DNA of 36,860 nucleotides from Pseudomonadota bacterium (lineage in GTDB: Bacteria; Pseudomonadota; Gammaproteobacteria; Francisellales; Francisellaceae): NCBI GenBank assembly GCA_027621155.1, contig JAQCCA010000003.1, positions 1-36,860 on the forward strand, read 5' to 3'. Shown piece after piece: positions 3,090-25,751 of the stretch. The notes under the pieces are model-generated. The model saw only the letters and a program-made list of their open reading frames with translations, searched no databases and was not told where the DNA came from. Positions within the stretch are counted from its first letter, which is position 1. Each line of letters begins with the position of its first letter. A program made the translations under genes and the position numbers.

Positions 3090-4211
3090 ATGCAAACGTA
3101 TTTAGTCGGCGGCGCTGTCCGCGATCAATTATTGGACCTCCCTGTCGAGGATCATGACTGGCTTGTGATTAATGCCAAGCCATTAGACATGCTAAAGCTT
3201 GGGTTTATTCAGGTTGGTAAGAATTTCCCCGTGTTTTTGCATCCTGAAACACATGAGGAATATGCACTAGCGCGCACGGAAATTAAAACAGGTCGTGGCT
3301 ATCAAGCCTTTACGTTTAACACGAATGAAGTGTCATTGATTGAAGATTTAAAGCGGCGAGATCTCACGATTAACGCCATGGCAATTGATGAAAATGGGCA
3401 ACTACACGATCCTTTTAATGGTCAAGAAGATATCAAAAACAAAAAGCTTCGTCATGTTAGTGATGCTTTTTGTGAGGATCCTTTGCGCGTGCTGCGTGTT
3501 GCACGCTTTACTGCCAAGCTTCATTACCTTGGATTTACCGTTGCTGATGAAACGTTGAAACTTATGCACGCCATTATTGCTAATAACGAGCTTGAAGCAT
3601 TATCTCACGAGCGCATTTTGCAAGAGTTTGCGCGCGCATTGAACACGCCAAACTTCGAGGTTTTCTTATCGACATTGCAACAATTAGGTGCCTTTGAACA
3701 TATTCTTAAGCCCTTACAAACATTAGCTATAAGTAGACTTAAACCATTATTAGATGCAATTCAATTACAATGTAAAAATCATGACATTTTGTTTGCTCTA
3801 TTGTTGGTGCATTTAGACAGCGAGCAAGCACTTATAGAGGTATTGAATGAGCTTAAACCGCCGAAAAGCACGCAAACACTCAGCCTTAGACTTTATCGTC
3901 ATCATAGGTTTTTCAGCACATTACAACAGTACTCAGAAAAAGATATTTTAAAAGCATTCAAGGCAATTGATGCACTGCGCAATAAATCAGCATTTAATGA
4001 TTTTCAAATAGCACTAAGACATCTTTATCAAAACTCAGCGCATGCCATATTAAATATATCCTTGAGTGACCAAATTCAAAAAGCGTTAACCGAATATGAC
4101 TATGGTTTAGCACTGAAAAATATTCGCAATAAGCAAACGATTGCCAAAACGGTGATGAAGCTACAGTTACAGCTGATCAATGAAATAATCAAGAGCGACT
4201 TACCAAATTAA
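3090..4211 (+). CDS. cca: CCA tRNA nucleotidyltransferase
   Basis: MQTYLVGGAVRDQLLDLPVEDHDWLV, RRDLTINAMA, DPLRVLRVARF motifs. Confidence 0.95.
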   Translation: MQTYLVGGAVRDQLLDLPVEDHDWLVINAKPLDMLKLGFIQVGKNFPVFLHPETHEEYALARTEIKTGRGYQAFTFNTNEVSLIEDLKRRDLTINAMAIDENGQLHDPFNGQEDIKNKKLRHVSDAFCEDPLRVLRVARFTAKLHYLGFTVADETLKLMHAIIANNELEALSHERILQEFARALNTPNFEVFLSTLQQLGAFEHILKPLQTLAISRLKPLLDAIQLQCKNHDILFALLLVHLDSEQALIEVLNELKPPKSTQTLSLRLYRHHRFFSTLQQYSEKDILKAFKAIDALRNKSAFNDFQIALRHLYQNSAHAILNISLSDQIQKALTEYDYGLALKNIRNKQTIAKTVMKLQLQLINEIIKSDLPN

Positions 4212-4218
4212 GTGAAAA

Positions 4219-4236
4219 TAAAGCCTTCGCTTTTTT
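4219..4236 (+). terminator. Possible Rho-independent terminator after cca
   Basis: aaagc-cttc-gcttt followed by a T run; short stem. Confidence 0.45.
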
Positions 4237-4275
4237 ACGCTAAAAACTATAGAATCCTATCTTACACATCGCTAA

Positions 4276-4468
4276 TGGTTTGCGCGAATTTGCGCAACGC
4301 AAGAGGGAATCTGGTGTAACTCCAGAGCTGGCCCGCAGCGGTAATTGGAAACGAACGATACACATTGATTCTTAATCTCTGGGAGTCAATGAAACGCACT
4401 GATTGAAACAATTGGGAAGCAGTATCTAGTAGGTGTTTAAACGCGTCCATAAGCCCGAATATCTGCCA
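4276..4468 (+). promoter_or_regulatory. Cobalamin (B12/adenosylcobalamin) riboswitch upstream of nrdAB
   Basis: Ordered conserved blocks: agaGGGAAtctGGTGtaacTCCagagCTGgCCCGCagcgGTAA … CACTGattgaaacaattGGGAAGc … agcCcGaAtatCTGCCat, spanning about 190 nt and ending about 170 nt before the nrdA ATG. Confidence 0.88.
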
Positions 4469-4639
4469 TTGGTTAATTGATTTATATGTTAAAAAAGCTT
4501 TCGTGGAACAAAGCACACATAGAGTAAAGATACTTGATATTGGTTAATAAACAATAATCAATAGCAACACATTTCTTGCTAACTTATGTCCTTGTTCCCG
4601 ATTGCTTAGTTTAAATTAATCGCGGATAGAGGATAAAAA

Positions 4640-6928
4640 ATGAATGTAAATGTCACCAAACGCTCAGGACGTTTAGAGCCTGTTAATCTGGATAAAATTC
4701 ATCGCGTGATCACTTGGGCTGCTGAAGGTTTAGAGAATGTATCTGTTTCTCAAGTTGAGCTGCAATCGCATATTCAATTATATGAAGGCATGAAAACAGC
4801 GGATATTCAGGCGATTATTATCAAAACGGCTGCTGATTTAATCTCTGAAGAAACACCTGATTATCAATATATGGCAGCGCGCTTAGCGATCTTTCATTTG
4901 CGTAAATTAGCTTATGGCGAATTTGAACCGCCGCATTTATATGATCATGTTAAAACACTGGTCAAAGCAAAAAAATATGATAGTCATTTACTTGATGACT
5001 ATTCTCGTGCTGAGTTCGAGCAAATGAATACGCATATTGATCATTGGCGTGATATGAACTTCACCTATGCTGCGGTGAATCAAATGCAAGGCAAATATCT
5101 TGTGCAAAATCGCGTTACTGGCAAGATATACGAAACACCACAAATGCTTTATATGCTGGTGAGTGCTTGTTTGTTTTCAGAGCATAACAAAGCAACACGC
5201 ATGCAATATGTGCTTAATTTTTATGATGCGATTAGTCAATTTAAGCTCTCTCTACCCACCCCAATTATGGCAGGAGTACGCACACCGACACGACAATTTA
5301 GCTCATGCGTGCTTATTGATACCGATGATAGCTTAGATTCAATCAATGCCTCCGCATCGGCAATTGTCAAGTACGTCTCACAGCGCGCAGGTATTGGCAT
5401 TAATGCCGGCAAAATCCGCGCATTAGGTAGTGAGATTCGTCAAGGTGAAGCACTACACACTGGCTGCATTCCATTTTATAAACATTTCCAAACGGCAGTT
5501 AAATCATGCTCACAAGGGGGTGTGCGTGGTGGTGCGGCTACCTTGTTTTACCCACTGTGGCATTTAGAGGTTGAGTCTCTCTTAGTGCTTAAAAATAACC
5601 GTGGGGTCGAGGATAACCGCATCCGCCACTTAGATTATGGTGTGCAAATCAATCGCTTAATGTACCAACGCTTAATCGAACAAAAGGATATCACATTGTT
5701 TAGCCCCAGTGATGTACCTGGATTATATGATGCTTTTTTTGCTGATCAAAGTGAGTTTGAGAAGCTTTATATTGCTGCAGAAAACACACCCAATATCCGC
5801 AGAAAAACGCTTAAAGCAAGCGAGCTTTTCGCCCTTTTAATGCAGGAGCGTGCGCAAACTGGGCGTATTTACATTCAAAACGTTGATCATTGCAATACGC
5901 ATTCAGCATTTAATGCGCAACTTGCACCGATTAAACAATCTAATTTATGTATGGAGATTACCTTACCCACCAAACCACTTGAGCATATTTTTGATGAAAA
6001 TGGTGAGATTGCACTATGTACTTTATCCGCATTTAATTTAGGCACCATTGACTCTCTTGATGAGCTAGCGTCTTTAGCCACTTTAATTGTCACGGCCTTA
6101 GATCATCTATTAGATTATCAAAACTATCCATTAGCATCGGCTGAAATTCCCGCAAAAGCGCGCCGCAGTTTAGGGGTTGGCGTCATTAACTTTGCTTATT
6201 ACTTGGCTAAAAATCATGTCAAATATAGTGATGGCAGTGCCAATAAGCTAACACATCAAACTTTTGAAGCTATTCAATATTATCTACTTAAAGCATCCAA
6301 TCAGTTAGCCAAAGAAAAAGGCGTTTGCACATACTTCAACGAAACAAGCTATGCCCAAGGATTGCTCCCCATTGATCACTATAAGAAAAGTATCGATGGG
6401 TTTGCTGATTTTTCACTGCAATATGACTGGGAAGCCTTACGCCAAGACATTCAACAACATGGCTTACGCAACTCCACCTTAAGTGCGATCATGCCATCAG
6501 AAACCTCCTCACAAATATCCAACGCCACTAATGGTATTGAACCACCACGTGGTTTGGTCTCGATCAAACAAAGCAAAGACGGGGTATTAAAACAGGTCGT
6601 GCCTGAGATTCAGCGTTTAAAATCTCAATATGAGTTGTTATGGCAAATGCCTAATAATACCGGTTATTTACAGCTATGCGCGATTATTCAGAAATTTATC
6701 GATCAATCAATTTCTGCTAATACCAACTATGATCCACTTAAATTTAATGATCAAAAAGTGCCAATGCAAACATTGATGTCTGATTTATTAATCGCTTATA
6801 AATATGGTTTAAAAACGCTTTACTATCACAACACACGCGATCATGCCAAAGAAAGCAAAGAGCCAACTAATCATACAATCGAGATAGCAGATATCGACGA
6901 ATGCGAATCAGGGGCATGTAAAATATGA
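4640..6928 (+). CDS. nrdA: Ribonucleoside-diphosphate reductase class Ia, alpha subunit
   Basis: 762 aa, collinear with E. coli NrdA; N-terminal ATP-cone ([23 protein letters not shown]), NLCMEI active-site region, C-terminal Cys pair (ECESGACKI). Confidence 0.97.
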
Positions 6929-8076
6929 CACAAAGTTACCATTACTCGACCTTTCAAACGACATCAAATAACCAACTGCATGAACCAATGTTTTTTGGCA
7001 CATCAGTTAATGTCTCACGCTTTGATCAACAAAAGCACCCTATTTTTGAACGCTTGATTGAAAAGCAGCTGTCTTTTTTCTGGCGTCCTGAGGAGATTGA
7101 TTTAAGTCGCGATCGTGTTGATTTTCAAAAGTTCAATGCCATTGAAAAGCACATTTTTTTATCTAATCTACAATACCAAACCTTGTTAGACTCAGTGCAA
7201 GGACGCAGTCCAAATATTGCGTTTTTACCGCTTGTCTCGCTACCTGAACTTGAAACGTGGATTGAAACCTGGAGCTTCTTTGAGACAATTCATAGCCGCT
7301 CATACACACATATGGTGCGATCACTTATGGATGATCCAAGCCCTGTATTTAATGCCATTGTTGATAATCCTGAGATCAGAAAACGCGCTGAAAACATTAC
7401 CTATTATTACGATCAGCTGATTATGCAAACACAGCTGTTACAAACACAAGGCACTGGAAGCTATCACATTGATGGTAAAATCATTGAAGTAAGTCAACAG
7501 AGCATTAAAAAAGCACTTTACTTGGCTCTGCATGCTGTTAATGCCCTTGAAGCCATCCGCTTTTATGTCAGCTTTGCCTGCACGTTTGCCTTTTCCGAGC
7601 AGAAGAAACTTGAAGGCTGTGGCAAAATTATGAAGCTGATTGCGCGCGATGAATCGGTGCATTTAACAAGCACTCAGCATATGATTAATATCATTCTCTC
7701 AGGCAAAGATGGCGATCCTGAGTTAACCGAGATTGCTCACAATCTACATGATGAAGCGCAAGCGATTTTCAAAGAAGCCATCGCACAAGAGAAAGCATGG
7801 GCAAAGTATCTGTTTTCACAAGGCTCTATACTGGGATTAAATGAGCAAATCCTTTGTCAATATATTGACTACTTAGCCAAAGAGCGTATGCAAGCTGTAG
7901 GACTTAATACCGATGATATTATCGCGCCCAAAGGCAATCCCATACCGTGGATTAATCATTATCTTAACTCAGATAACGTCCAAGTCGCACCACAAGAAAC
8001 CGAGATTAGCTCGTATCTTGTCGGTCAAATAGATAGTAATGTTGCTGATAATGCCTTTAGTGGTTTTGAACTATAA
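6925..8076 (+). CDS. nrdB: Ribonucleoside-diphosphate reductase class Ia, beta subunit
   Basis: [58 protein letters not shown]; 4-nt overlap with nrdA. Confidence 0.97.
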
Positions 8077-8078
8077 CA

Positions 8079-8306
8079 ATGGTTCGTATTAAGCTTAATG
8101 ATCAAATTATAACGATTGATAATAATGAATTAACGATACTTGAATATCTTGAACAACAAGGCATTGCTGCCAACTTTCAGTGCCGCAATGGCGTGTGCGG
8201 TACTTGTCGCTGTCAATTAATCTCAGGGGATATCCAATACATCAAAGAACCATTGGCTTTTATTAAAGACGATGAGGTGCTTATTTGTATTGCTAGAACT
8301 CAGTAA
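8079..8306 (+). CDS. yfaE: 2Fe-2S ferredoxin-like protein of the nrd operon (YfaE-like diferric-tyrosyl radical maintenance)
   Basis: 75 aa with C-x4-C-x2-C (CRNGVCGTCRC) plus a distal Cys; directly follows nrdB. Confidence 0.88.
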   Translation: MVRIKLNDQIITIDNNELTILEYLEQQGIAANFQCRNGVCGTCRCQLISGDIQYIKEPLAFIKDDEVLICIARTQ

Positions 8307-8421: not shown

Positions 8422-8637
8422 TACCCAGGCTTACAGTTATACACCGCAAACTTTTTAAGCGACTGTAATGGCAAGTATGATGAAATATACCAACCATATT
8501 GCGCTGTCTGCTTAGAAACACATGACTATCCCGATGCGCCAAATCATGCTGATTTTCCAAGTATTATCACACCGGCGCATCACTTAAGGAAACATAGCAG
8601 CCGTTATGTATTTTCAACTGCTTTAGCAAAAACATAA
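8422..8637 (+). pseudogene. galM: 3' remnant of aldose 1-epimerase (galM)
   Basis: Plus-strand reading YPGLQLYTANFLSDCNGKYDEIYQPYCAVCLETHDYPDAPNHADFPSIITPAHHLRKHSSRYVFSTALAKT* matches the GalM C-terminus (PGLQ-YT-NFL, CLE-Q-PD-PNH--FPS); in-frame stop at 8410-8412, so 5'-truncated. Confidence 0.82.
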
Positions 8638-9845
8638 TGATCGGGCACACACGTGTTTCTCCCATTTTGCAATTTCTTTAAAAAATAAAGCGCAAAGAGC
8701 GCGCCTGGAATGGACAGCAAACCACCCAAGGTAAACAATACGCCATAACCTAAATGTGCTGCTAAAAACCCACTTATGATCATGCCTGAAATATATATCA
8801 GTAATTCTGCACACACTAGCACGGTAAAGTCAGTTCCCGCCTGCTTTTTCGAGCAATACTCTGTAAATATCGTATAAAGTACAACCATCTCCATTAAGCG
8901 TGATGCCATATTTACAAGCACAACACTAAAGATCAAAACACTTGAATTGATCCCACTTAACGCAATTCCGCCTAAAGAGAAATAACATACACCACGAATA
9001 ATTGCCAACAACCCCAGCATTTTCATGCCTCCTAAGGGCTTAAATAAACAGCTTGCTGTTGTCGCACCTACTAATCCAATCACCGCAGAGCCTATACCCA
9101 TAACAATGCCAATTGTGCTTAAGGGAATCTCAAGATCGACCAAAAAAGCTGACTGCATACCCATAACCAAGCCTTCACAAGCCCGATATATCAAACAGAT
9201 TAAAAGTAACAGTTTAGTTTCTCGGCGTTTAAAAAATGCCATTAATGAAGGCTTATGCTCCTGTACTAATTCAGTGGTATTTTTATTTTCAGTGATAAAA
9301 AACATATAACAGACGATAAACACACAAAGCACTGCCAATAAAGAGGTCACCGCCTGCCAGCCAAGGGTATGGTATAACGATATCAAGAGTGCTCCGCCAA
9401 GCATACTCCCCAGTGTTGTTCCTGCTACTCTAGCAAGGTTTCCCCAATGGAAATGATCTTTATCCAACTGCTCCACTAAGAAGCCATCAATTGCAATATC
9501 CTGTGTTGCCGCAACAGCTGACAACAAAAAGGCTAATAGAAAAATGACGAGCCAATACTCTCTTGGTGTAAATAATGAAAAGATCAATAGCATTACAATC
9601 GTGACAAATTGCAACCCCATAAACCAGCTTTTTCTCTTGCCAATTCTCTTAATATAATAGCGATCGACAAAAGGTGCCCACATAAACTTCACAACCCATG
9701 GCAGCAACAATAACCCGAGCATGCCAATCATCTGTAAGGATATTCCCTCTGCCCTTAATACTGTCGGTAAAGCAAAGGTACAAAAATACAATGGAATGGC
9801 TTGCGCTAAATATAAAACGCCTAAGTTTATAAAACGCTTATTCAT
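8604..9845 (-). CDS. MFS/AmpG-like transporter, RhtX/FptX-type siderophore transporter
   Basis: About 12 TM helices; MNKRFINLGVLYLAQAIPLYFCTFALPTVLRAEG and TQDIAIDGFLVEQL resemble the RhtX/FptX/AmpG family; last gene of the siderophore operon. Confidence 0.8.
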   Translation of the reverse strand: MNKRFINLGVLYLAQAIPLYFCTFALPTVLRAEGISLQMIGMLGLLLLPWVVKFMWAPFVDRYYIKRIGKRKSWFMGLQFVTIVMLLIFSLFTPREYWLVIFLLAFLLSAVAATQDIAIDGFLVEQLDKDHFHWGNLARVAGTTLGSMLGGALLISLYHTLGWQAVTSLLAVLCVFIVCYMFFITENKNTTELVQEHKPSLMAFFKRRETKLLLLICLIYRACEGLVMGMQSAFLVDLEIPLSTIGIVMGIGSAVIGLVGATTASCLFKPLGGMKMLGLLAIIRGVCYFSLGGIALSGINSSVLIFSVVLVNMASRLMEMVVLYTIFTEYCSKKQAGTDFTVLVCAELLIYISGMIISGFLAAHLGYGVLFTLGGLLSIPGALFALYFLKKLQNGRNTCVPDHYVFAKAVENT

Positions 9846-9869
9846 CTGATACCCTCTTATGCCCGTTAT

Positions 9870-10256
9870 CTATAAACCATGTTGCTGTAGTAACTTATGC
9901 GCCTGTTGATAGGCTGTCACAACATCGCGCACTGCAATACATTGAAAAGGCATGCCTTTACGCATCGCCGGAGATTGAAGCTTTGCTATCATCGTAGGGT
10001 CTTCTGTGACACGAAACATCCCCAAGCAATATTTTGCCAGATCATTTTTGACTGTTTTAAACCACACTGCCTGTTTTTTACGAGCGTCATGCGTGAATTG
10101 ATAATGTGCTTCAAATGTACTGATCAGTAAAAAAGGTATTTTCCTTTTAAGCAAACTATCACAATCATTAAGCCAATGAATCACCTCATCATAGTGTGGA
10201 TAGTTATGAAAATGCATGCGCACAATAGGCCAATCTTGAATATCACATTGGATCAT
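9870..10256 (-). CDS. Small conserved-looking protein (128 aa) of the siderophore operon
   Basis: ORF overlapping the upstream synthetase gene by 4 nt (translational coupling); possible STAS/SpoIIAA-like fold, uncertain. Confidence 0.7.
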   Translation of the reverse strand: MIQCDIQDWPIVRMHFHNYPHYDEVIHWLNDCDSLLKRKIPFLLISTFEAHYQFTHDARKKQAVWFKTVKNDLAKYCLGMFRVTEDPTMIAKLQSPAMRKGMPFQCIAVRDVVTAYQQAHKLLQQHGL

Positions 10257-12709
10257 ATTAAGACCTCTTTTTCTGCTTTTTCTGCTTTTTCTGCTTTTTC
10301 TGCTTTTCCTACTTTTTCTACACTTCCTGTATTTATTTCATCGGTTGCATTTATTACTTGAGCTTTATCATTTTGCTTAAATTTATCAGCCTCACAGATA
10401 AAAACATATGCTGTTTTCTCAGGTAGCTGAATCTGCCCATACTTTTTGTAGCCGAGCTTCACTGTGATTTTTTCTAATGCCACAACACTAACATCTGGCT
10501 CACACAACACACGATAAGCATTTAGCTGATCAAAGCAATATGCAGTTAATGCCCGCACAATCAAATGCCCATAACCCTGCCTAATAACATGTGACTTACC
10601 GATAAGGACATGCCAACCATAATCGAATTCACCCACTGGATAATATTGTGCAATCCGATCAGCACAAGCCTTGTAAATTTCAGCATAGCCAATCTCAACA
10701 TTATTGACACTTATAATAAATAGCTGTTGATGTCCCGTTGATAATGCCTGACAAAAATGACGACTTAATTCAATTTTTGATTTAGCTAAACGCCAGTGCT
10801 TAGCAACATGCGGCTCATTCATCCAGCAATAGAGTTTATCAATATCCTGAGATAGATTTAGCGCACGTAAGCTCACACATCCTTTTGTATAATGCTTACA
10901 TGTATCCTCGTAAACTTTAGCTAAATATAATGGATTGACAAGCTGATCCGTTGGCAGCACTTTAGGTCGTGATTTGGCATCACCATAGCCTACTTCAATC
11001 ACTCGCAGACGATTTAAACACAGTTTGGCATAATGCGGCTGATACAAATCAAAGCGTTTAAAACGTTCTTTTAACTCTGGGTGCTGCTTCTGATAACTTG
11101 CAATGCATTGATGTAACTTTTGATAAAACCGAATTTCAGGATAATGTAACTTATTAGACAAGATTTCAGATAAATAGCGATAGTGCACAACAAACAAGCC
11201 CGTTTGAATAAACTGCAACAAGTAATCATCTTCAACCTGTGGAATCGCCGCCTTGACTGACAATGGCAGGCTTGCTAATTCTAGCACAGGGTTTTGGCAA
11301 ATATTAATATCATCAACAAAGTCTTTCATTGCTAGCCCAACGGGCAAGCCATTATTTAAGAGCAAAATACTATTCTCACCATGTGGTGAAAAAACCATAC
11401 CATAGCGATATAAGAAATGAAGAAGTGGCGGCACAGTATTGGCAAAGTAAGCGTTAAGCCAATCATCAAGATCAACACCACTGTGCTTGATCATCTCATG
11501 GACTAAGGCGTTGCCATATTGATCTTGATGCACTAATGACGCCATCGTGATCGCTTTTTCATGTGTCTGAAGTTTACTAGTAATGCTTTCTCGCCAAATA
11601 CCCCCTAACTGCTCGCTAAACTGATAAGGCGCGCCATCAAAGTCACTGTAAAAAGGGTGTTTAACATAAATACTAGCCAACTCCCCTAACAAAATAAAGC
11701 GACAATCCTGACTTAAGAACACATCATTTTGTGCTATCGTTTGCACCCACTCTGTTAATAGTGGCGCAACCTGAGTCTGCTTTTTAGGAAGACCGCGATA
11801 TACTGCCGTATTAAAAATACTCAATGGCAATTTAACGCTATACTTGCTACTATCTGTGGTATTAGCAAAAGTCCGAATCGATTGCATCGCAAGATAATTA
11901 TCATCTGATTCGCCTAAATAAACGATCTCATTCTTTGCCAACATACAGCTAAATTGCTGCAAAATGACATTTTGCCACTGCCATTGATGCACAGGGACGA
12001 AAACATATAAATCCGGATTAAGCCCTTGTTTTATCAATTTTTCCTTAAATTGCATGTGCATATCATCAGATAGCTCATGCTTTAATATATCCTGATAGCA
12101 CATCGATGAGACCGCGCTAAAAGTAACCTTCTCCTTAACAACCGCCAAATAGTGTAACTTTTGTACTTGTTGCATTTCTGGGGCATATAGCGCATAGTCT
12201 TTGGCATTAAAACCAATACGCCCTTTATTGATCACAAACCATGGGTGCCCGTGCATATCACCCTCAATATCAGCATAGGGCTTATGATAAATCTCTTTTG
12301 CTGAAATCCCTGAGTTTTCAAGCTTTAGCCTGATATTCATATCTGCATACAGAGTATTATTGAGCTCTTTGATAAAGTGTGCAGCGGTGATAGAATCAAT
12401 ACCCGTTAAAGCCAAGGTGTCCACCACAAATTCAATAGCATCTAGCGCAGGATCAGCTTTGCCATTGATACATTTAATAATACTACCTGAAACAATATCA
12501 AGGTTACCAAAGATGCGTTTGATCGCCTGAAATTGATAATATTGATTAGGCGCAACATCAAGTCGATAGCATTTATCATTTTGAGCATCACAAACGGGCT
12601 TGAGTAACCCCTCGTAGCTAAATTCCTCAATTATTTTTTGAAGCAATGCAGTACTTGCCTTAACATAGTGCTTTTGGTTTTGCTGATTAAACAGCTCTGC
12701 GATCATCAT
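10253..12709 (-). CDS. Fusion protein: NIS siderophore synthetase (IucA/IucC family) + C-terminal siderophore N-acetyltransferase (IucB/RhbD-like)
   Basis: N-terminal IucA/IucC signatures (HPWFVINKGRIGF, YAPE, FSPHGENSILLL, DFVDDINI); C-terminal about 180 aa resembles the siderophore acetyltransferase (MNEPHVAKHWR…GYAEIYKACADRIAQYYPVGEFDYGWHVLIG…GYGHLIVRAL). Reading frame extends to 12754, but start at 12709 (MMIAELF) has an AAGGA SD. Confidence 0.87.
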   Translation of the reverse strand: MMIAELFNQQNQKHYVKASTALLQKIIEEFSYEGLLKPVCDAQNDKCYRLDVAPNQYYQFQAIKRIFGNLDIVSGSIIKCINGKADPALDAIEFVVDTLALTGIDSITAAHFIKELNNTLYADMNIRLKLENSGISAKEIYHKPYADIEGDMHGHPWFVINKGRIGFNAKDYALYAPEMQQVQKLHYLAVVKEKVTFSAVSSMCYQDILKHELSDDMHMQFKEKLIKQGLNPDLYVFVPVHQWQWQNVILQQFSCMLAKNEIVYLGESDDNYLAMQSIRTFANTTDSSKYSVKLPLSIFNTAVYRGLPKKQTQVAPLLTEWVQTIAQNDVFLSQDCRFILLGELASIYVKHPFYSDFDGAPYQFSEQLGGIWRESITSKLQTHEKAITMASLVHQDQYGNALVHEMIKHSGVDLDDWLNAYFANTVPPLLHFLYRYGMVFSPHGENSILLLNNGLPVGLAMKDFVDDINICQNPVLELASLPLSVKAAIPQVEDDYLLQFIQTGLFVVHYRYLSEILSNKLHYPEIRFYQKLHQCIASYQKQHPELKERFKRFDLYQPHYAKLCLNRLRVIEVGYGDAKSRPKVLPTDQLVNPLYLAKVYEDTCKHYTKGCVSLRALNLSQDIDKLYCWMNEPHVAKHWRLAKSKIELSRHFCQALSTGHQQLFIISVNNVEIGYAEIYKACADRIAQYYPVGEFDYGWHVLIGKSHVIRQGYGHLIVRALTAYCFDQLNAYRVLCEPDVSVVALEKITVKLGYKKYGQIQLPEKTAYVFICEADKFKQNDKAQVINATDEINTGSVEKVGKAEKAEKAEKAEKEVLI
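10268..10321. repeat. 9-bp in-frame tandem repeat (4 perfect copies of tttttctgc plus 2 degenerate copies)
   Basis: Encodes the KAEKAEKAEKAEK tail of the fusion synthetase on the minus strand. Confidence 0.9.
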
Positions 12710-12755
12710 CTTTTTACATATCCTTTTCTTTGTTCTATACCCATCACAAGCCAAT

Positions 12756-14156
12756 TTACAGCATTTCTGCCATTGCTTCTTCGCCCTGCTTCACTTCTTT
12801 TTGTGCACTCTCTTGTGTTTTCTTTTGCTCTTTAAGATAACGTGCAGGCACGCCAAAATGCGTCAAACCATGTTGTGAGGCAAATTGATAATGTTTATAC
12901 CCAAGCAATTGATTGGCAATCAATGCACTGCGATAGGCACCAAGGGTTAAATCAGGGGCGCCAACACCATGGCTATGCATTTCAGCATTTTGTACAAAGG
13001 CACGTAACTCATGCACGTGTGCATGTTGCAGTTGATAGTTTTTATCGATCAAATAATTACCTGAATCATCAAGCGCAAAGACATCCGCCACCGTTTTTAA
13101 CCAGCACGATAAATTATCCTCATAACCCGTGGCAGCGATAATATGATCTGTTTCAACCATAAATGATTGCGCTTGATCACGTTGGTGATAATGGCATCTT
13201 AATGCTTGCTGCTGCTCACTTGAATAGCAGGGCTCAACATCAACAAGCTCGCTATTGCTAATAACTTCAAATGAGTGATCACCATATATCTTTCTTTGAT
13301 AGAGAAGCGCGTAGATTTCCTTAAGCGTCTCGCCACTAATACCTTTATGCAGCAAGCCCTGCTCAGTGACTAACTTTGCCTTTTTTTCTTTGGATAAATC
13401 ATAAAAGTAATCAATATAATCTGGTGAGAAATGCTCCAAGGCAAGTGGGGTATGCTCCATTGGGGAAAAGCTTTTGCTGCGCGTAATCCAAGTTAACTTT
13501 GTTGATATGTGCTTTGTAGACATCAAGTCTAAAAATATCTCAGCTGCACTTTGCCCTGAACCAATTAAAGTAATATGTTTTTTTGATAACAAGCTATCTT
13601 TTATATCAAGATACTGTGCACTGTGATGAATATTTTCCTTTATTTGCTGTGATGCGTCCCTTAAGGCTTGGGGTAGCTGTGGCACCGAACCCACGCCAAA
13701 GATGAGATTTTCAGTTGTCAGTTGCTTTACAAAGCCATTACCATCTTTAATCGCTACCTGCCAAATATATTTATTTTGCCGCTTTAGCACCTTAATTCTC
13801 ACTACCTCCATTGCAAAATGACAACTTGAGAGTTGTGCGATAACCCAGCGGCAATACTCATTATATTCTTTGCGTAGCATAAAAAAGCTCTCTTTAAAGA
13901 AAAACGGATAGAGCAAGCCTTGCGTTTTAAGATAATTTAAAAAACTAAAACGATTTGTCGGATCCGCCATCGTCACGAGATCCGCCATAAACGGCACCTG
14001 TAAAGTAGTTGTTGGCATCATAACTCCTGCATGCCAATTAAATTGAGCCTTTTTGTCAACAAACATACATTTTAATGACTTATCAGCTAATAGCGCGGCC
14101 AGGCTTAAATTAAATGGTCCAACACCAGCACCTATCACATCATAATGCTGCATCAT
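12756..14156 (-). CDS. L-lysine/L-ornithine/diamine N-monooxygenase (IucD/RhbE family)
   Basis: FAD motif GAGVGPFNLSLAALL, NADPH motif GSGQSAAEIFLDL, C-terminal AATGYEDNL. Confidence 0.9.
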   Translation of the reverse strand: MMQHYDVIGAGVGPFNLSLAALLADKSLKCMFVDKKAQFNWHAGVMMPTTTLQVPFMADLVTMADPTNRFSFLNYLKTQGLLYPFFFKESFFMLRKEYNEYCRWVIAQLSSCHFAMEVVRIKVLKRQNKYIWQVAIKDGNGFVKQLTTENLIFGVGSVPQLPQALRDASQQIKENIHHSAQYLDIKDSLLSKKHITLIGSGQSAAEIFLDLMSTKHISTKLTWITRSKSFSPMEHTPLALEHFSPDYIDYFYDLSKEKKAKLVTEQGLLHKGISGETLKEIYALLYQRKIYGDHSFEVISNSELVDVEPCYSSEQQQALRCHYHQRDQAQSFMVETDHIIAATGYEDNLSCWLKTVADVFALDDSGNYLIDKNYQLQHAHVHELRAFVQNAEMHSHGVGAPDLTLGAYRSALIANQLLGYKHYQFASQHGLTHFGVPARYLKEQKKTQESAQKEVKQGEEAMAEML

Positions 14157-15870
14157 ACACCTCCGCCATCAAGGGATTATTGATCTGGGTATACACTGAT
14201 TGCTGCTCTAATGGTGCTTGCAATTCGTCCAGACCGTTAAGACGCGTTAATAAGTTTGCTTTACTTGGTAGCGTCTCTGCTGTTAATAAATACTGACAAA
14301 ACCGATTGTTTGTTTGGTAAGTACTTGAGAAGCTCTCTAAAAAACAGATCACCTTATTAATTAATATTTCTTCTTCAATCTCGGCAGGAATTGCTAGAGC
14401 CTCAATAACTGCCAACAGTTGATTGACAATAAAATAATAACAAAAATGATGATCAATAAATGCTTCATTACCGTCACATAGATGAATCAACTGCTCGTTA
14501 GTGGCAACATGATGCAAATTTGGATGATCGTGAATATAGTAATAGCCCTGACTATCACGATAAAATCCCGCAACAGGTAAAGCATCTTCAAAGCGCACCA
14601 ATAAGTTCTGCTGGTGAGCCTCTAACGCTATACCGTATTCACTATAAAGCCATAACACTGGCGCAATCACACACTTAAGATAAGCATTTAGCCATTTTAC
14701 TGCTGCCTCTGGCAATGATGTTTTATCCTTTCGCGCATGATAAGCCACCATCTGATTTAAGCGGCAAATAGATTGCATCGGATGCAGACTGGTTAAACTC
14801 GCAATACAGCTAACGTCATCTTTAAGCGAGAAAGGATTATGCCGCACGATGCATATACTTGGCTCATACAACTTGGCACCCACTGTCAATCCCGCAAAAG
14901 CTGGATCTGTAATCAAAGAAAAACATGGAAATTTCCCTGCTAAAACATCCTTTAATTTGCCCCTTGCCAATACATCAACAGCGATACTGCGATAACACTC
15001 TCTTGTGGCATTAACACGCACTGAATTCGTAATCGCAATGTTAAGTGAAAATTTAAACATCACATCCACCTCTGGACTATAAACTGTGCGCACTGAGGTT
15101 GTCGCATAAAACCATGGTCCTAAAGTGCCTAAATCAAGTATTTTCCCAGCTCTAAGATATGCTTGAATCGCAGGCTGCTGCAATAGATAGCTAGCTTGCC
15201 ATGGATGAGTGACAAATAGCGTTTGACTGTCAACGAGTGTGATCCTAGGTTCGTTTTTTAAAAAGCACACAATAATTTCTGTCACTGAACGATCAAGGTT
15301 TGAGTGCATATCTATAATTGAGCAATCAACAATAAAATAATGGAGCTTAAACCCGCTTTGTGTTTCAGGTGAGTAATCAATCAGCTCTTGTTTATTAAAA
15401 CCCTCTCGCGACTTGCCATCAGGCTGTAAACGGTGCCCTAATAGATGATTTTGTTCACTTAATAGAAAATTAGACTGAACATCGAGCATATGATCGAGAC
15501 TAGACTGTCGATATGCCAAAATCGTAGCCAACTGCTCGGCGGAGTTAATAGTACGTCTTAATGTATCATCCAGATGCGTAAGTGAAATCGGCTCCGGCAA
15601 AGCCAATAAGATCAAATGAATTGCAAATAATGGGGTAATGTTTATCTGTTCATTAACCGTTTGATAACTTATTGGCAACTGCCAAGCTGGTGACTTAAGT
15701 CTTGATGACAAATGAACATTAATCAGTAAACAAGTGTTTTTTTCTTTGCATGGAATTTTTAAGCAATATTGATCATTGCTAATTTTCCTAAGCATATAAT
15801 GATATTTAAATTCACGGTAATAACAATTTAGTAAATGTTTTAAAGTCTCTTCATATGCACGCATTAGCAT
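14140..15870 (-). CDS. NIS siderophore synthetase (IucA/IucC family, RhbC/IucA-like)
   Basis: GHRLQPDGKSREGF (GHP-HP-PKSR-like), YSPE, LFVTHPWQ, QNLLVRF motifs; first gene of the operon; 17-nt overlap with the monooxygenase gene. Confidence 0.85.
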   Translation of the reverse strand: MLMRAYEETLKHLLNCYYREFKYHYMLRKISNDQYCLKIPCKEKNTCLLINVHLSSRLKSPAWQLPISYQTVNEQINITPLFAIHLILLALPEPISLTHLDDTLRRTINSAEQLATILAYRQSSLDHMLDVQSNFLLSEQNHLLGHRLQPDGKSREGFNKQELIDYSPETQSGFKLHYFIVDCSIIDMHSNLDRSVTEIIVCFLKNEPRITLVDSQTLFVTHPWQASYLLQQPAIQAYLRAGKILDLGTLGPWFYATTSVRTVYSPEVDVMFKFSLNIAITNSVRVNATRECYRSIAVDVLARGKLKDVLAGKFPCFSLITDPAFAGLTVGAKLYEPSICIVRHNPFSLKDDVSCIASLTSLHPMQSICRLNQMVAYHARKDKTSLPEAAVKWLNAYLKCVIAPVLWLYSEYGIALEAHQQNLLVRFEDALPVAGFYRDSQGYYYIHDHPNLHHVATNEQLIHLCDGNEAFIDHHFCYYFIVNQLLAVIEALAIPAEIEEEILINKVICFLESFSSTYQTNNRFCQYLLTAETLPSKANLLTRLNGLDELQAPLEQQSVYTQINNPLMAEVYDAAL

Positions 15871-20480: not shown

Positions 20481-21983
20481 CTATTTTACAAAATATTCTT
20501 TAATAACATTATCTTCCCAATCATTTGGTGTGATATTGAGATTATAATCACCCCAGCCATGCCCTGTACTCCAAGCTGTCCAGCCAACAAAACCATAACC
20601 GTTTGTCTCAGTATACGCATGTGATTTCATATACGCTAAGAAGTCACCTAATGGTTTAGCGCAGCTAGCTTGATCCTTCCCTACGCCAAACTCAGTAACT
20701 ATTGCTTTAAATTTATTAGCCTTTAAGTAACTGACAAAAGCATCTAAGTTAAAGCCATTGTCACCTGTTGTTGTAATATCTTGTAAGCACTGATCATGCG
20801 TACCACTAAAATCACTATCTAAGTATTGATGCACATTGATAATTACTTGATTATCCAAAACTTCGCTACTGACACCCGCATTAAGAAAATTTTGACGCGT
20901 AAAGACTATTGCATTGCCGGCAGCATCCCAACTATGCAAGCCTGAAAAGTGAACACCTTCAACTAACAATTTACCTTTAAATCCCATACCTGTGAGGCTC
21001 TTAATAACGGCAACTTCCATATCAAATGCTTGTTGAGCTGTTAAGCTTTCTCCAGAAGCCGCTGATGGTTCATTCACTAAATCAAACATTAAATATTGCT
21101 CATTAATAGCAGGATCTTGCTTAATAGCACTGTATAACTTATTCCAGATATTGACATAATATTTTGGATCTGTGACTAAACTCCCTTGTGGACATTGCCC
21201 CTGCCCTGTACAACCAGCAACCTCACTACCTATTGTGCCGTAATGCATATAGCTATGTAGATCTACAATAGCGTAATATTTATGTGATGTAATTGTTGCT
21301 AATGTTGGTGCCACTAAATAATCCTGAAATGCTGTTTGATTATTAGAACTATTAATATCTTGATACCCATATGGCTGCAAATATGCCCAGCGCACTGGCA
21401 CACGAATAGTATTTGCTCCTTGATTTAAAAATTCAATGGTTGGCTTGTTATCCGCCCCATCATCAGATAAATCAGGAATAACACTGGCATTTGGCATTGT
21501 TGAGAATTCAAGCCCCGATAAATTAATACCTGTATACCAATCATCTGTTACTCGAGTATTAGTTGGGAAGCTGCTACCTGCGGGTAATATTTTAGTAAAA
21601 GCAACTTTACCATTAAATACATTATTGGTAATACTATAATCTGTTAGCTGAATATGTGAGTTGTCGGCAGGCTTATATTTAACATCACTACCACTTACAT
21701 CTAACCAACCTAAATAAATATCACTATCTGCGCATCCCCCTAAACGTAATGAAGCACCAAAATAGTATTTATTACCACTAATTGCGTTCGGGTCAAACTT
21801 TTCTCCATGCTTCCATTCAGTAAATTTACCGTCTGAATCTTTAACACATAAAAGTGGCTGCTGTGCTTGTGGCAATAAGGTTTCATCATACAAGCCGCTG
21901 ATATTATTTGTCATCATTGCAGCAAAACTATGACTTGCAGCTAAAACAGTTGCAATGGCTATTCCTTTGGCTAAAAATTTCAT
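20481..21983 (-). CDS. Secreted glycoside hydrolase family 5 endoglucanase (GH5_5-like) with an N-terminal extension
   Basis: Signal peptide MKFLAKGIAIATVLAASHSFAA; GINLSGLEF, ANTIRVPVRWAYLQP, DLVNEPSA (acid/base Glu), VHQYLDSDFSGTHDQC, IVTEFGVG (nucleophile Glu), GFVGWTAW; SD AGGAGA. Confidence 0.9.
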   Translation of the reverse strand: MKFLAKGIAIATVLAASHSFAAMMTNNISGLYDETLLPQAQQPLLCVKDSDGKFTEWKHGEKFDPNAISGNKYYFGASLRLGGCADSDIYLGWLDVSGSDVKYKPADNSHIQLTDYSITNNVFNGKVAFTKILPAGSSFPTNTRVTDDWYTGINLSGLEFSTMPNASVIPDLSDDGADNKPTIEFLNQGANTIRVPVRWAYLQPYGYQDINSSNNQTAFQDYLVAPTLATITSHKYYAIVDLHSYMHYGTIGSEVAGCTGQGQCPQGSLVTDPKYYVNIWNKLYSAIKQDPAINEQYLMFDLVNEPSAASGESLTAQQAFDMEVAVIKSLTGMGFKGKLLVEGVHFSGLHSWDAAGNAIVFTRQNFLNAGVSSEVLDNQVIINVHQYLDSDFSGTHDQCLQDITTTGDNGFNLDAFVSYLKANKFKAIVTEFGVGKDQASCAKPLGDFLAYMKSHAYTETNGYGFVGWTAWSTGHGWGDYNLNITPNDWEDNVIKEYFVK

Positions 21984-24665: not shown

Positions 24666-25751
24666 TTACGACCTCTTATTTCCTATTGTTCCTGCTTTTT
24701 CTATGCTACCCATACAATAATAATCATCATTCAAAAACCCATTGTCTTTGATATTAATACGCTTCTTGTGCTTAAAATCGGCAATGATCATCGGTGCTAC
24801 ATAACTTTGCACTTCATCGACTAACTGAGCCTCAAAAAAAGCATTCAGTAATGTTCTGCCACCCTCAACTAAGACACTGGTAATACCTCTTTGCGCCAAT
24901 ACTTCTAATACTTTTGCAAGGCCAATCTCGCCCTGATTTAATGATACCTTAATGCACTCAATACCTTTATACGCCAATGCATCAAGCGTATCTTGATCCG
25001 CCAAATCACTGGTAATCACAACACTCTCAATACCATCATTAAAAAGCGTTGCATCACATGGTAACTGGCACGTTTTTGATAACACAATACGTAATGGATG
25101 CTTAATAAACTCTGCATCTGAAACTCTTACGGTAAGACTTGGATTATCTTCAATCAACGTCTCACGCCCAATCATAATCGCATCAACGCTATTACGTAGA
25201 TTATGCACTTGATGTTGTGATGTTTTATTAGTAATTTGTTTATTATCTTGTGGATGCGTCACCATCTGACCATCGAGTGACATACCCCATTTGGCAATGA
25301 CATATGGGCGTTTATACTTATGATAATGAAAAAATATTTTATTCATGACAGTCGCTTGATGACACATAAGTCCTGATTCAACGACAATACCTGCTTGTTG
25401 TAAACGCTTAATCCCTTTCCCTGCTACTTGCGGGTTAGGATCAATACTGGCGACAACGACTTTAGCAACCTGTTCCGTGATCAAGCGCTCGGTACACGCT
25501 CCCGTTCTGCCAACATGGCAACATGGCTCAAGAGTGACATAAACAGTCGCACCTTGCGCGCTATCCCCTGCTTGATCTAAGGCATGAATCTCAGCATGTT
25601 TATCGCCAGCAAAGCGATGCCAACCTTCACCAATAATTTGACCATTTTTAACAATCACACAGCCAACCATTGGGTTAGGCGACACACTCAAAGCGCCACG
25701 CCTTGCCAACATCAGCGCTTGAGACATATAAAAATAATCCGCTTGAAACAC
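24666..25751 (-). CDS. ribD: Bifunctional riboflavin deaminase/reductase RibD (GTG start)
   Basis: PNPMVGCVIVKNGQIIGEGWHRFAGDKHAEIHAL, TVYVTLEPCCHVGRTGACTERLI, AKWGMSLDGQ. Confidence 0.95.
   Translation of the reverse strand: MFQADYFYMSQALMLARRGALSVSPNPMVGCVIVKNGQIIGEGWHRFAGDKHAEIHALDQAGDSAQGATVYVTLEPCCHVGRTGACTERLITEQVAKVVVASIDPNPQVAGKGIKRLQQAGIVVESGLMCHQATVMNKIFFHYHKYKRPYVIAKWGMSLDGQMVTHPQDNKQITNKTSQHQVHNLRNSVDAIMIGRETLIEDNPSLTVRVSDAEFIKHPLRIVLSKTCQLPCDATLFNDGIESVVITSDLADQDTLDALAYKGIECIKVSLNQGEIGLAKVLEVLAQRGITSVLVEGGRTLLNAFFEAQLVDEVQSYVAPMIIADFKHKKRINIKDNGFLNDDYYCMGSIEKAGTIGNKRS

Follow-up and report, generated by a model that had tools for sequence, protein, structure and literature searches.

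In the Francisellaceae bacterium studied here, a cobalamin riboswitch, probably one that senses adenosylcobalamin, very likely is the OFF switch of the nrdA-nrdB-yfaE operon, which encodes an E. coli-type class Ia ribonucleotide reductase. The reading already proposed in an earlier note, that B12 shuts the class I enzyme when the B12-dependent class II enzyme NrdJ can serve, appears the most likely one. The aptamer, the operon, NrdJ, the adenosyltransferase, the neighbourhood of the receptor and the family-wide co-occurrence, all described below, are read from the sequence itself.

The nrdA leader and its operon

The window, that is the whole stretch of 36,860 nucleotides that was analysed, contains one cobalamin riboswitch in the Rfam scan (cmscan, Rfam 15). 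The match to RF00174 (Cobalamin) lies at 4259-4484 on the + strand, scores 88.6 bits (E 8.5e-21) against a gathering score of 31.5 bits, and covers the full length of the model (positions 1-189 of 189). This covariance-model search was one of the checks that the earlier note had proposed, and the leader element upstream of nrdA is confirmed, as far as sequence can do so, as a genuine cobalamin riboswitch. The note had placed the riboswitch at 4276-4640, an interval that leaves out the aptamer's initial 17 nt and takes in the remainder of the leader as far as the start of nrdA (4640); the aptamer itself is real, and it ends 155 nt before nrdA. Its P5/L5 hairpin, recognized from the sequence as GCUG-GCCCG-CAGC, spans 4327-4339 (+), with a loop at 4331-4335 that presumably forms the kissing contact with L13. 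The B12 box GCCCGAAUAUCUGCC, located from the sequence and the Rfam alignment, occupies 4453-4467 (+) on the 3' side of the aptamer core, and just 3' of the aptamer follows the P13/L13 hairpin GCUUU-CGUGGAAC-AAAGC (4497-4514, +), the presumed kissing-loop partner of L5.

The operon consists of three genes on the + strand: nrdA for the alpha subunit (4640-6928; NF006578, 1450 bits, cut-off 813), nrdB for the beta subunit, which overlaps nrdA by 4 nt (6925-8076; NF006576, 616 bits, cut-off 346), and yfaE for the 2Fe-2S ferredoxin of class I enzyme maintenance (8079-8306; NF007985, 79.7 bits, cut-off 75). All three exceed curated cut-offs, which for NrdA and NrdB are equivalog cut-offs that mark an E. 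coli-type class Ia enzyme, and the assignment of an E. coli-type class Ia nrdA-nrdB-ferredoxin operon made earlier is upheld. Among solved structures, the chains nearest to NrdA belong to ribonucleotide reductase R1 from E. coli (2r1r/1rlr set).

The rest of the window holds an FMN riboswitch (RF00050, 25958-26110, - strand, 121.4 bits) in an ordinary arrangement upstream of ribD (24666-25751), and a siderophore-like cluster at 8604-15870 (-). This cluster encodes two IucA/IucC-type synthetases, of which one carries a GNAT tail, together with proteins resembling a histamine N-monooxygenase and an RhtX/FptX transporter; a further protein of 128 residues has no family match. At 20481-21983 (-) lies a gene whose product has a cellulase domain of glycosyl hydrolase family 5.

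Partner genes, B12 supply and distribution

The source assembly (2.35 Mb in 286 contigs, 90.5% complete, the window being contig C33) carries the nrdJ gene that had been predicted elsewhere in the genome: NrdJ, class II and B12-dependent, is encoded at C202:13638-15551 with 574.5 bits (cut-off 400) and no internal stop. The riboswitch stands in the 5' leader of the gene for a B12-independent isoenzyme, with NrdJ in the same genome. A supply of adenosylcobalamin is indicated by a PduO-type adenosyltransferase (C108:757-1236, 188.5 bits) and by a receptor gene under a riboswitch of its own, since 28 nt upstream of the gene for a TonB-receptor-like protein there is a second cobalamin riboswitch (C131:559-754). 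Other genomes of genera g1-g4 also have a second riboswitch upstream of a TonB-plug-type protein, and Pfam Plug is found in the receptor homologues of G006 and G009. These homologues, both 490-residue pieces, do not reach the BtuB equivalog cut-off of 599.7 (18.3 for G009, no match for G006), and the receptor behind the second riboswitch is best described as TonB-receptor-like only. The receptor-side riboswitches end 28-60 nt upstream of their genes in 9 of 10 loci and 6 nt upstream in the weak L024 (G008:C42:6679-6894), a 41-bit match whose B12 box lacks the usual CUGCC and which is possibly decayed.

NrdD (PF13597), the corrin-ring marker CbiC (PF02570) and BtuR (PF02572) were each found in none of the 30 family genomes, the control genomes being positive. 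Because these three were not found, B12 is probably scavenged by the source cell, which seems unable to make the corrin ring. The expectation of B12 uptake or synthesis thus stood for uptake, with the riboswitch before the TonB-dependent receptor and the PduO-type adenosyltransferase, but not for synthesis, given the absence of CbiC from the sample. The cell thus appears to scavenge B12 and to have two reductases, of which one depends on oxygen and the other on B12.

The family sample covers 30 genomes from six genera, including Cysteiniphilum, which the NCBI taxonomy places in Fastidiosibacteraceae. NrdA exceeds the NF006578 cut-off in 13 of them, the window's own genome included (the G002 gene lies in two parts on separate contigs), and RF00174 is present in the same 13, in every case with a copy 147-311 nt upstream of nrdA on the same strand. 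NrdJ is above its cut-off in these same 13 genomes and in none of the remaining 17; the PduO-type adenosyltransferase occurs in 12 of the 13 and again in none of the 17, the one NrdA-bearing genome without a match (G001) being 57% complete. None of the 17 genomes of genus g5 has the riboswitch, this NrdA, NrdJ or the adenosyltransferase. Across the 13 genomes and five genera, the nrdA aptamers have a mean identity of 0.74. In a FastTree tree of 28 aptamers and 193 columns, from which L025 (a duplicate of L020) and the weak matches L024 and L176 were excluded, the receptor aptamers and the other nrdA aptamers separate from the nrdA aptamers of the family, with mean identities of 0.51 and 0.53; the tree gives no indication of which group is the parent.

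Outside the family, a cobalamin riboswitch on an E. coli-type NrdA seems unusual. Among 80 named NrdA loci, 8 within the family and 72 outside it (Enterobacterales, Pasteurellales, Aeromonas, Psychrosphaera and others), none of the 72 has a cobalamin riboswitch over the gathering score within the DNA fetched per locus. NrdA exceeds the NF006578 cut-off in 8 of 274 sampled gammaproteobacterial genomes, and a riboswitch upstream of nrdA was found in none of the seven besides the window's own. At three loci an Aggregatibacter sRNA, JA02 (RF02730), was seen immediately before nrdA but on the other strand (L110:2771-2886, L132:2770-2886 and L140:2773-2888, -). The arrangement of a cobalamin riboswitch before a class I nrdA is not special to the family, because it also precedes a longer-type nrdA in other Gammaproteobacteria. 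Such a riboswitch was present in 8 of 13 further nrdA upstream stretches (L164-L167, L172, L173, L175, L176), a count that is no frequency because the stretches were hand-picked, four by listed adjacency and nine from genomes with both riboswitch matches and a listed NrdA. The NrdA behind these riboswitches is longer, of non-E. coli type, and scores about 340 bits or less to NF006578, as against 1450 here. What may be special to the family is the combination of the riboswitch with an E. coli-type NrdA.

How the leader may control nrdA

All 13 family nrdA leaders have a hairpin of the form GCUUU-CGNGG(A/G)AC-AA(A/G)G(C/U) 3' of the aptamer, which is the natural candidate for L13 and the presumed kissing partner of L5. 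The L5 loop is identical among these leaders, and its CCCG core recurs in the receptor leaders, most of which combine L5 CCCG with L13 CGGGG; most of the other nrdA leaders of Gammaproteobacteria have L5 ACGCG with L13 CGCG, whereas the nrdA leaders of the family have GCCCG with CGNGG. L5 and L13 covary between the leader groups, as a paired change. In the nrdA leaders of the family the presumed kissing loop is imperfect, because the central L5 and L13 bases form a C.U or C.A mismatch in 11 of 13, that of the window included, and pair only in the two g2 genomes; most leaders of the other groups are complementary at this place.

Further downstream, a predicted hairpin (4587-4635, +), in which the ribosome-binding site of nrdA (AGGAUA, 4630-4635) is paired to a UAUGUCCUU-like arm lying upstream, is conserved in the six members of the genus. 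The predicted unpaired probability of the site in the window is 0.03, and 4 of 150 shuffles do as well; for the six genus members, 3-19 of 150 shuffles hide the site equally well, and for the seven leaders outside the genus 24-141 of 150 do, which is within chance, the site of the G008 leader being predicted to be open. None of the 18 pairs of this hairpin shows a two-sided (compensatory) change in the genus alignment, and three pairs with such a change occur in the structure upstream of it. Free folding of the entire leader leaves the site clearly more open than does the bound-like fold in 3 of 13 cases only (G000, G003 and G009), so that folding fails to reproduce the switch itself. No intrinsic terminator (a G+C-rich hairpin followed by a T run) was found in 4100-4800, and because of this, together with the ribosome-site hairpin of the genus, a translational output is favoured, as a reading that is probable by a little.

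It is possible, but rather unlikely, that the same OFF switch has a transcriptional output, in which the ligand would expose a Rho site or cause pausing or early termination within the 155-nt platform, translation being affected secondarily. The E. coli btuB riboswitch is reported to use Rho too, and the nrdA platforms, at 147-311 nt, are long and vary in sequence from genus to genus, in contrast to the short spacers of the receptor-side riboswitches; the hiding of the ribosome site, moreover, does not exceed chance outside the window's genus. Within the genus, however, the ribosome-site hairpin is conserved, and the lack of any intrinsic terminator-like site in 4100-4800 also counts against an effect on transcription.

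Other candidate elements of the leader were rejected. An ATG at 4486 opens a frame of 13 codons over P13, and a 1-nt length change breaks this frame in three of the six genus members (G004, G005 and G007); what is conserved is therefore the RNA and not a leader peptide. An NrdR box (consensus ACACWATATATWGTGT) was not seen in the nrdA leader, the sole match with 3 mismatches in the window lying at 15267, at chance level (mean 1.09). An antisequestor formed by L13 and the 3' arm of P13 with CCUUGUUCC of the ribosome-site hairpin is complementary in the window; across the genus the base at its centre is not constant (G, A, G, A, none, C), and it is therefore unsupported there. No consensus promoter match was found on the + strand, and TATAGAAT at 4248-4255 is only suggestive as a promoter element.

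As to the ligand, a corrinoid other than adenosylcobalamin (methyl- or hydroxocobalamin) is improbable, and with it a switch that monitors B12 uptake as a whole instead of the NrdJ cofactor: the adenosyltransferase co-occurs, and a full-length RF00174 element with an extended P6 side, as found here, is typical of adenosylcobalamin-preferring riboswitches. Against this stands the broad response to corrinoids of which cobalamin riboswitches are capable, according to PMC9600662. That chance has preserved a decayed or ligand-blind aptamer is very improbable, for although 11 of 13 leaders have an imperfect kissing loop and the score falls below many RF00174 matches of Gammaproteobacteria, the match reaches 88.6 bits across the full model, is kept in 13 of 13 genomes of five genera with a mean aptamer identity of 0.74 and a conserved P13, and co-occurs with NrdJ and the adenosyltransferase.

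For the preferred reading, an adenosylcobalamin OFF switch acting on translation, we infer the ligand, the direction of regulation and the output. B12 would enter via the TonB-dependent receptor, itself controlled by the second riboswitch, and the PduO-type adenosyltransferase would convert it to adenosylcobalamin. When plentiful, adenosylcobalamin would bind the aptamer and L13 would dock on L5; the docked leader would then settle with the ribosome-binding site paired, NrdAB would fall, and the B12-dependent NrdJ would supply the deoxynucleotides. When B12 is scarce, NrdAB, which needs oxygen, would be made. Since NrdD was not found, the cells should not grow when both oxygen and B12 are lacking.

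Related systems and meaning for the family

Borovok et al. (2006) are said to have found that a B12 riboswitch represses the class Ia nrdABS of Streptomyces, whose genome also has the class II NrdJ. The likeness is close, as here too a cobalamin riboswitch precedes class Ia nrdAB and NrdJ is in the same genome, but the present case differs in its E. coli-type NrdA, its YfaE, the lack of NrdS, the probable scavenging of B12 and its place in the Gammaproteobacteria. The riboswitches before non-E. coli-type nrdA in other Gammaproteobacteria belong to the same aptamer family and occupy the same place, several of their leaders having a visible P13 hairpin with UUCG.G.AACA. In Chlorobium, according to PMC8620254, a cobalamin riboswitch precedes nrdD, likewise a B12-independent reductase, although of class III and not of class Ia as here. 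The btuB switch of E. coli, a Gram-negative adenosylcobalamin OFF switch with an L5-L13 kissing loop (cited in PMC9600662), resembles what is proposed here; it differs in controlling uptake and not an isoenzyme, and here P13 lies more than 110 nt upstream of the ribosome site.

PMC5962746, with reference to Vitreschak 2003 and Borovok 2006, states that B12 riboswitches regulate some ribonucleotide reductases, and it describes the influence of B12 on nrd expression in P. aeruginosa as independent of such a riboswitch. Isozymes of B12-dependent enzymes form one class of cobalamin regulon members in PMC3766115, whose main text does not mention nrd. Among the literature matches listed, which cover few subscription journals, there is no earlier report of a B12-switched nrdA in Cysteiniphilum or Francisella. 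The logic of a B12 riboswitch on class I nrdAB is already known, and the present lineage is a new case of it, in which the switch is attached to an E. coli-type nrdA, a combination absent from all 72 named non-family loci examined.

It is an evenly balanced proposition that the E. coli-type nrdAB was put under B12 control once, in the ancestor of five B12-scavenging genera, and that the riboswitch, nrdAB, NrdJ and the adenosyltransferase form a module gained or lost as a block and absent from the sixth, Francisella-like genus. If this is true, the supply of B12 would decide whether these bacteria can make DNA without oxygen. The lineage, which includes Cysteiniphilum, offers a clean case in which a probably scavenged vitamin would choose between two routes to DNA precursors, and its genomes predict that these bacteria require B12 for anaerobic growth.
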